Shown here: piece by piece, positions 39,864-39,938 of the stretch
Position numbering within the stretch: the stretch's first letter is position 1
How the letters are laid out: each line of letters starts with the position of its first letter
IMG/VR virus record: IMGVR_UViG_3300030333_006863
Span: 1-48,490 of that record
Direction: 5' to 3' (one strand)
Length of the DNA: 48,490 nucleotides
DNA from: a virus
Made by a program: the position numbers and the translations under genes
The notes under the pieces: model-generated
What the model was told of the DNA's origin: nothing
Databases searched by the model: none
Seen by the model: only the letters and a program-made list of their open reading frames with translations

Positions 39864-39938
39864 TGGTAGCAGGGGCTGGAATCGAACCAGCGACCTTCGG
39901 GTTATGAGCCCGACGAGATACCTCTTCTCCACCCTGCA
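39864..39938 (-). tRNA. Initiator tRNA-fMet (CAU)
   Basis: A complete 75-base cloverleaf on the minus strand: acceptor TGCAGGG/CCCTGCT with a U-U mismatch at 1-72, D-stem GAGA/TCTC, anticodon stem TCGGG/CCCGA around loop CTCATAA, T-arm GCTGG TTCGATT CCAGC, and encoded ACCA. It shows three features that separate bacterial initiator from elongator tRNAs: no Watson-Crick pair at 1-72, a purine-pyrimidine A11-U24 pair, and three G-C pairs at 29-31:39-41. From the D-stem end to the variable loop it reads like E. coli tRNA-fMet. The D-loop is shorter. It lies among the early minus-strand genes. Confidence 0.93.

Follow-up and report, generated by a model that had tools for sequence, protein, structure and literature searches.

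A predicted initiator tRNA gene, patchy yet positionally stable, in a family of marine phages

Introduction

The initiator tRNA of bacteria is characterized by a 1-72 mismatch, three G-C pairs in the anticodon stem and the positions 2-71, 3-70 and 11-24, which are described as initiator and formylation features (PMC7949028). Of the three G-C pairs, G30-C40 is contacted by A1339 of the 16S rRNA, and the alteration of G30-C40 alone lowers translation about 20-fold (PMC11497404). The reasons for which phages encode tRNAs are under debate. As codon compensation in elongation is no option for an initiator tRNA, a phage-borne one must serve either the translation start or the survival of the initiator pool.

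Initiator tRNAs of phages are already known, e.g., from Pseudomonas phage D3, from Caulobacter phage CcrBL9, where the gene is annotated as tRNA-fMet, and from Erwinia phage pEa_SNUABM_47 (PMC7760394), for whose tRNA-fMet a role under kasugamycin was suggested (PMC9686651). Initiator-type tRNAs could also be read from the sequences of Gordonia phage GodonK and of Lak-B1. In addition, the exact anticodon arm of the tRNA described here is present in at least 119 IMG/VR stretches, some of which are prophages next to host tRNAs. The remark of the first-pass annotation that phage tRNAs are usually elongators is therefore fair as a general rule, but initiator-type tRNAs are not rare, given these stretches, CcrBL9 and the printed reports.

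A Met-tRNA is also mentioned in the context of the giant GOLLD RNA. The GOLLD RNA env-38, for which a nanocage structure was solved, originates from a marine sample and is described as located 'downstream of Met-tRNA' (PMC12286853).

The tRNA gene and its genomic setting

The window, i.e., the whole stretch of DNA analyzed here, comprises the 48,490 bases of a virus record in IMG/VR from a marine phage and contains tailed-phage genes for the portal, the major head protein, the terminase, a DnaB-like helicase/primase and a Sak4-like protein. A single tRNA was called in the window by ARAGORN, a tRNA-Met(cat) on the minus strand (Table 1), which also matches the Rfam model RF00005 (63.8 bits at a gathering score of 29; E 1.2e-11). 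Parsing of the sequence (U1 GCAGGG UG GAGA AGAGGUA UCUC G UCGGG CUCAUAA CCCGA AGGUC GCUGG UUCGAUU CCAGC CCCUGC U72 A73 CCA) agrees with both tools in a complete cloverleaf with a CAU anticodon. All four features on which the first-pass annotation had based its call of an initiator could be found, namely the mismatch at 1-72 (U·U, no Watson-Crick pair), A11-U24 in the D-stem, the G-C pairs at 29-41, 30-40 and 31-39 (GGG/CCC) and the encoded CCA. Furthermore, the acceptor stem has G2-C71 and C3-G70, the anticodon loop reads CUCAUAA and position 73 is an A. The family covariance model R1 described below gave 82.9 bits (E 1.5e-19), which is far more than expected by chance and a score that has to be read with the window tRNA itself being part of the training set; the next best site in the window reached 11 bits. 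The full cloverleaf was not obtained in a thermodynamic fold of the window tRNA alone, which is common for folds of unmodified tRNA sequences.

With same-strand phage ORFs on either side, the tRNA is located inside a leftward gene series. The promoter scan around the tRNA was at chance level (26 vs. 25.1) and the terminator scan was weak (5 vs. 3.2). For the possible hairpin directly 3′ of the tRNA, the fold of 39780-39866 resulted in a z-score of -1.93 with 7 of 200 shuffles equally good, which is weak support.

Table 1. Location of the features in the window and in related loci.
Feature	Location	Strand	Evidence or match
Predicted initiator tRNA gene, tRNA-fMet(CAU), 75 nt with encoded CCA	39864..39938	(-)	ARAGORN, Rfam, parse, family model R1
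Upstream same-strand ORF, 77 aa	40217..40450	(-)	no Pfam match; single PHROG match, E 0.094
Possible 9-bp hairpin (AAGGACATG/CATGTCCTT) directly 3′ of tRNA	39810..39853	(-)	read in sequence
Downstream same-strand ORF, 85 aa, GTG start, AAGGAG upstream; next gene after tRNA	39522..39779	(-)	no PHROG match; Pfam match below cut-off only
AAA_33/polynucleotide-kinase-like P-loop protein	window 39050-39529	(-)	Pfam E 2.2e-8; PHROG 505 polynucleotide kinase E 1.4e-7
DUF2828/DUF7788 (TROVE-like) protein, GTG start	window 36705-38102	(-)	PHROG 850 'RNA-binding protein' E 1.5e-87
GOLLD RNA (RF02032)	L241:2828-3232	(-)	
GOLLD RNA (RF02032)	L038:1395-1835	(-)	
GOLLD RNA (RF02032)	L251:858-1265	(-)	
tmRNA-like RNA, message domain absent	L038:1299-1380	(-)	45.6 bits, below cut-off 47
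tmRNA-like RNA, message domain absent	L241:2657-2737	(-)	41.9 bits, below cut-off 47
tmRNA-like RNA, message domain absent	G003:C1:967-1047 (= L276:168-248)		53.2 bits, cut-off 47

The window tRNA shares with the bacterial initiator tRNA-fMet the CAU anticodon, the non-Watson-Crick 1-72, G2-C71, C3-G70, A11-U24, the GGG/CCC anticodon stem and the CCA. It differs from it by a D-loop of 7 nt, the GAGA/UCUC D-stem and its location on a phage genome, and at 1-72 it has U·U, whereas the E. coli initiator has C·A. The tRNA of phage D3 is 89.3% identical to it over 74 nt and, according to its raw sequence, has C·U at 1-72 and three G-C pairs, while CcrBL9 and Lak-B1 have the same U·U as the window tRNA. 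D3, CcrBL9, GodonK, the Lak phages and pEa_SNUABM_47 are unrelated to the window phage, and GodonK and pEa_SNUABM_47 are described as encoding several tRNAs, whereas the window phage has only one. Among the 12 loci of the isolate comparison, three (D3, Donnerlittchen and Haboob) remained unparsed because the loop pattern required U33, and these were read from the raw sequences instead. The GodonK and Milchi loci also contain non-initiator CAU tRNAs, and the CAU tRNA of Alone3 is not initiator-like.

The nearest among the compared sequences is the tRNA of the IMG/VR locus L182 with 87.8% identity. The copy of the nearest sister (L003) is only 73.6% identical to that of the window, though the terminases of both are about 90% identical. 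Two readings fit the 72 bases compared: the window phage may have newly captured its copy into a long-standing slot, or the copy of the sister may have drifted more quickly.

Distribution among terminase relatives

Relatives of the window phage were fetched from IMG/VR via the terminase, and 20 of their CAU tRNAs were used to build the covariance model. In many of these relatives, a CAU tRNA is located upstream of the terminase genes on the opposite strand. Within a hand-picked set of 50 family records, mostly longer ones, the divergent CAU tRNA was detected with the covariance model in 16, always in the same place and orientation, as a single copy and with E ≤ 1.5e-16. One record (G003) gave only a weak 20-bit match, to a different RNA. 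A set of 100 fetched loci contained nine further tRNA-bearing records (L017, L037, L063, L225, L227, L241, L243, L251 and L271), to which L217 was not added as its record had already been counted. Of the 23 family records with a length of at least 36 kb, only 9 contain the tRNA according to the covariance model, so the gene is dispensable. By its sequence and place, the predicted initiator tRNA is a patchy yet positionally stable gene of this phage family. In one locus, a second, weaker tRNA lies directly beside the initiator tRNA (L063:381-441, minus strand), with 33.3 bits to RF00005 and a call as tRNA-Leu(taa) by relaxed ARAGORN.

The terminases of isolates are distant, with an identity of at most about 26% among the 30 listed of 607 records and below 60% for all 607. 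The host was searched via terminase matches in bacterial genomes, where a single-sequence query gave 23 pattern matches and a 16-row alignment 210 matches, none of them from a relative.

Conserved and drifting initiator features

The features of the family tRNAs were counted in the 20-row alignment and in a set of 21 distinct sequences, which comprises the alignment plus L274 and L275 and minus L017, since the 3′ end of the latter can be read in two ways, with an extra T or as a 7-bp acceptor containing G1-C72. Duplicates were dropped, namely L215, L217 and L271 (identical to the L021 tRNA), L225 (identical to L222 except for the 3′ flank), L201 (identical to L003) and L242 (identical to L241).

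In the alignment, pairing is kept in 98.3% of the cells at acceptor pairs 2-7 and in 98.0% of those in the anticodon stem, the latter with many two-sided compensatory changes; altogether, 14 of 19 pairs show changes on both sides. Position 1-72 is paired in only four of the 20 rows (three U-A, one A-U). Among the 21 distinct sequences it is mismatched in 17 (nine A·A, five U·U and one each of G·A, A·G and A·C), and the remaining four have a weak A/U pair, never G-C or G-U. G30-C40 is invariant (21/21 sequences, 20/20 rows). The neighboring pairs are less constant, as 29-41 is G-C in three and 31-39 in 15 of the 21 sequences, with compensated changes, and the full triplet of G-C pairs is present in only two. 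Among bacteria, too, there are initiators that lack the full set of three G-C pairs. A11-U24 was found in 8/20 rows and U11-A24 in 11/20, while 2-71 is G-C in 18/20, 3-70 is C-G in 19/20 and the loop CUCAUAA is present in all 20. The CCA is usually not encoded in the tRNAs of the relatives.

In the relatives, the hallmarks of an initiator (no strong 1-72 pair, G30-C40, the CAU loop, G2-C71 and C3-G70) resist drift. The natural variation of the family shows which initiator features selection keeps: the retained ones are those that matter most in initiation, while A11-U24 and the flanking G-C pairs were let go. G30-C40 is the sole anticodon-stem pair that was never lost, in agreement with the ribosome contact known from cryo-EM. 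New in comparison to the phage initiators described so far is a fast-evolving lineage of predicted initiators maintained at one locus, a slot that some relatives share with the GOLLD nanocage RNA and a tmRNA-like mini-RNA.

Proposed role and alternative explanations

The relatives keep the key features of a start tRNA while the rest of the molecule drifts, and for this reason the phage tRNA probably works as a starter. We consider it very probable that the window tRNA is a working phage-borne initiator tRNA of the bacterial type. It would be co-transcribed with the leftward genes, matured by the RNase P of the host and charged by the host MetRS. The host Fmt, reading 1-72, 2-71 and 3-70, would formylate it, and it would enter the ribosomal P site with A1339 of the 16S rRNA docking on G30-C40. 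In this way it could add to or replace the host initiator pool during infection. The benefit would most likely be a sustained initiation when the host initiator tRNA is limiting or attacked. The data would fit a phage that provides extra initiator when late translation is heavy, one that replaces a host initiator lost to degradation or attack, or both; our best guess from the sequences is a general role in initiation, as a supply or as a replacement.

A link between the initiator and GTG or TTG start codons, as proposed in the first-pass annotation, was rejected. The observation behind it, that several genes of the window use these codons, holds weakly, as 34 of the 38 window genes start with ATG, two with GTG and two with TTG. 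In 21 hand-picked loci carrying the tRNA, 18 of 252 genes (about 7%) have a non-ATG start, compared to 19 of 311 (about 6%) in 21 likewise hand-picked loci without it, two of which (L045 and L206) overlap on one contig. For these counts a purpose-made start caller was used, which favors ATG and Shine-Dalgarno sequences.

A counter-defence function is possible but appears less probable than a general role. The phage would then provide a spare or decoy initiator that resists host enzymes directed against tRNA-fMet, such as VapC-type anticodon nucleases or Met-tRNA acetylating toxins, and that still initiates. The target of VapC-LT2 is the initiator tRNA, and phage tRNAs of other groups bear nuclease-evading changes (PMC10264068). 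In the relatives, the anticodon stem outside 30-40 drifts, and the raw sequences of the initiators of phage D3 (L279), Haboob (L289) and Donnerlittchen (L287) have a C in place of the near-universal U33. On the other hand, the anticodon arm of the window tRNA is an ordinary bacterial one with the loop that is uniform in the family, and phages facing VapC-LT2 are described in the same source as generally avoiding to encode tRNA-fMet (PMC10264068). The family does encode a tRNA-fMet, but no contradiction to this avoidance pattern is claimed. The altered loop of the three isolates, CCCAUAA, is an observation in its own right and perhaps reflects nuclease evasion.

A CAU anticodon is likewise found in elongator Met tRNAs and in Ile2 tRNAs that depend on lysidine, but either identity is very unlikely here. 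Such tRNAs are expected to have a paired 1-72 and a pyrimidine at 11 with a purine at 24, whereas the window tRNA has U1·U72 and A11-U24. As a control, non-Met tRNAs on the 119 IMG/VR loci were parsed, and four unparsed tRNAs are omitted from the counts. Here, 1-72 is paired in 271 of 276 tRNAs and mismatched in only five, against the 17/21 of the family (Fisher p about 8e-20, with sequences within a family not being independent). The CAU tRNAs of the control loci without G30-C40 have a Watson-Crick pair at 1-72 in 7/7 cases. Among the 77 with G30-C40, 20 also have a Watson-Crick pair there, nine of them G-C; G30-C40 alone is hence no proof of an initiator, and has to be taken together with an open 1-72. 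The initiator identity claimed earlier is well supported, most strongly by the comparison with the relatives, in which 1-72 is open or only weakly paired and G30-C40 never varies, and by these sequence features the window tRNA is to be assigned to the initiators and not to elongator Met or Ile2 tRNAs.

It is still less likely that the gene is not a phage gene, but a fragment of a host tRNA, a relic of an integration att site or, at the edge of a contig, a gene of the host. Among the 119 IMG/VR loci that share the anticodon arm, 19 of which yielded no parse, several contigs have one and the same full-length CCA tRNA, as prophages in tRNA genes would, and the window copy is more bacterial-like than that of the sister (87.8% to L182, 73.6% to L003). 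However, it is located mid-contig amid phage genes, and diverged orthologues occupy the same slot in the relatives. No integrase match was found among 30 window proteins scanned against PHROGs, and the 'transposase' match at 6178-7059 is weak (E 0.0028) and ranks behind a far better exonuclease match.

The DUF2828/DUF7788 protein of the window, which we take to be kin of TROVE, and the kinase-like gene are encoded within about 3 kb of the tRNA on the same strand. That the tRNA belongs with them to an RNA-handling cassette, as a Y-RNA-like partner or a repair substrate, is equally improbable: TROVE proteins act with tRNA-like RNAs (PMC7824862), but the genes are unlinked in the family, where the TROVE-like gene is present in 2/50 records (one without tRNA) and the kinase in 1/50 compared to 16/50 for the tRNA, by which a family-wide unit is largely refuted.

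GOLLD and tmRNA-like RNAs in the same slot

The window contains neither a GOLLD nor a tmRNA-like RNA; for GOLLD (RF02032), no match up to E 1 was obtained in window 36000-42000. In the family, GOLLD was detected in 6 of the 50 records, three of them above the 150-bit cut-off, mostly in the intergenic slot of the initiator tRNA. It lies within about 1 kb of the tRNA on the same strand in five cases (G005, G013, G027, G047 and L251), 3′ of it in G005, G013 and G027. GOLLD without the family tRNA is found in G003 and in G010, in the latter at the contig start. The difference between tRNA-positive (4/16) and tRNA-negative records (2/34) is not significant (Fisher one-sided p 0.07). Outside of the family, GOLLD was found in none of 50 unrelated viral records that have this anticodon arm, which were picked by hand from the 119 loci, mostly omitting host-like tRNAs. 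A positive control was not part of this run, although GOLLD was detected in the family by an identical search. GOLLD is no general companion of phage initiator tRNAs.

In G003, G013 and G047, an RNA of 81-82 nt aligns with the Rfam tmRNA model over the full model length but has no message part (53.2, 45.6 and 41.9 bits, respectively; cut-off 47), and thereby looks like the tRNA-like domain of a tmRNA. These RNAs adjoin GOLLD, and in two of the three the initiator tRNA is adjacent as well.

The published context of env-38 resembles the order of tRNA and then GOLLD in G005, G013 and G027, while the window differs from it by having no GOLLD. The family suggests that the Met-tRNA reported 5′ of GOLLD RNAs from marine samples may be an initiator. 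A literature search joining GOLLD with an initiator tRNA gave unrelated plant papers only. The initiator reading of the GOLLD-linked Met-tRNA offers a lead, open to testing, on what this giant RNA does.

A speculative and rather unlikely reading would take the marine lineage for a naturally occurring collection of initiator tRNAs pared down to the essentials, in which drift has stripped most of the textbook determinants (A11-U24, G29-C41, G31-C39 and the encoded CCA), so that only the open 1-72, 2-71/3-70 and G30-C40 are left. The slot, which in some relatives also holds GOLLD and the message-less tmRNA-like RNA, would then be an RNA island for the takeover of host translation, with GOLLD perhaps handling or shielding the phage initiator.

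Two further observations concern the protein-coding genes of the window. In the region of the structural genes, an ORF of 2,978 aa is located at window 13392-22328 on the plus strand, for which no PHROG match was found at E 0.01. At window 32565-34545 on the minus strand, a ThiF-like gene (E 3.1e-22) and a Prok-JAB-like gene (E 6e-4, below the cut-off) are neighbors, which look like a ubiquitin-type E1/JAB pair of a phage.
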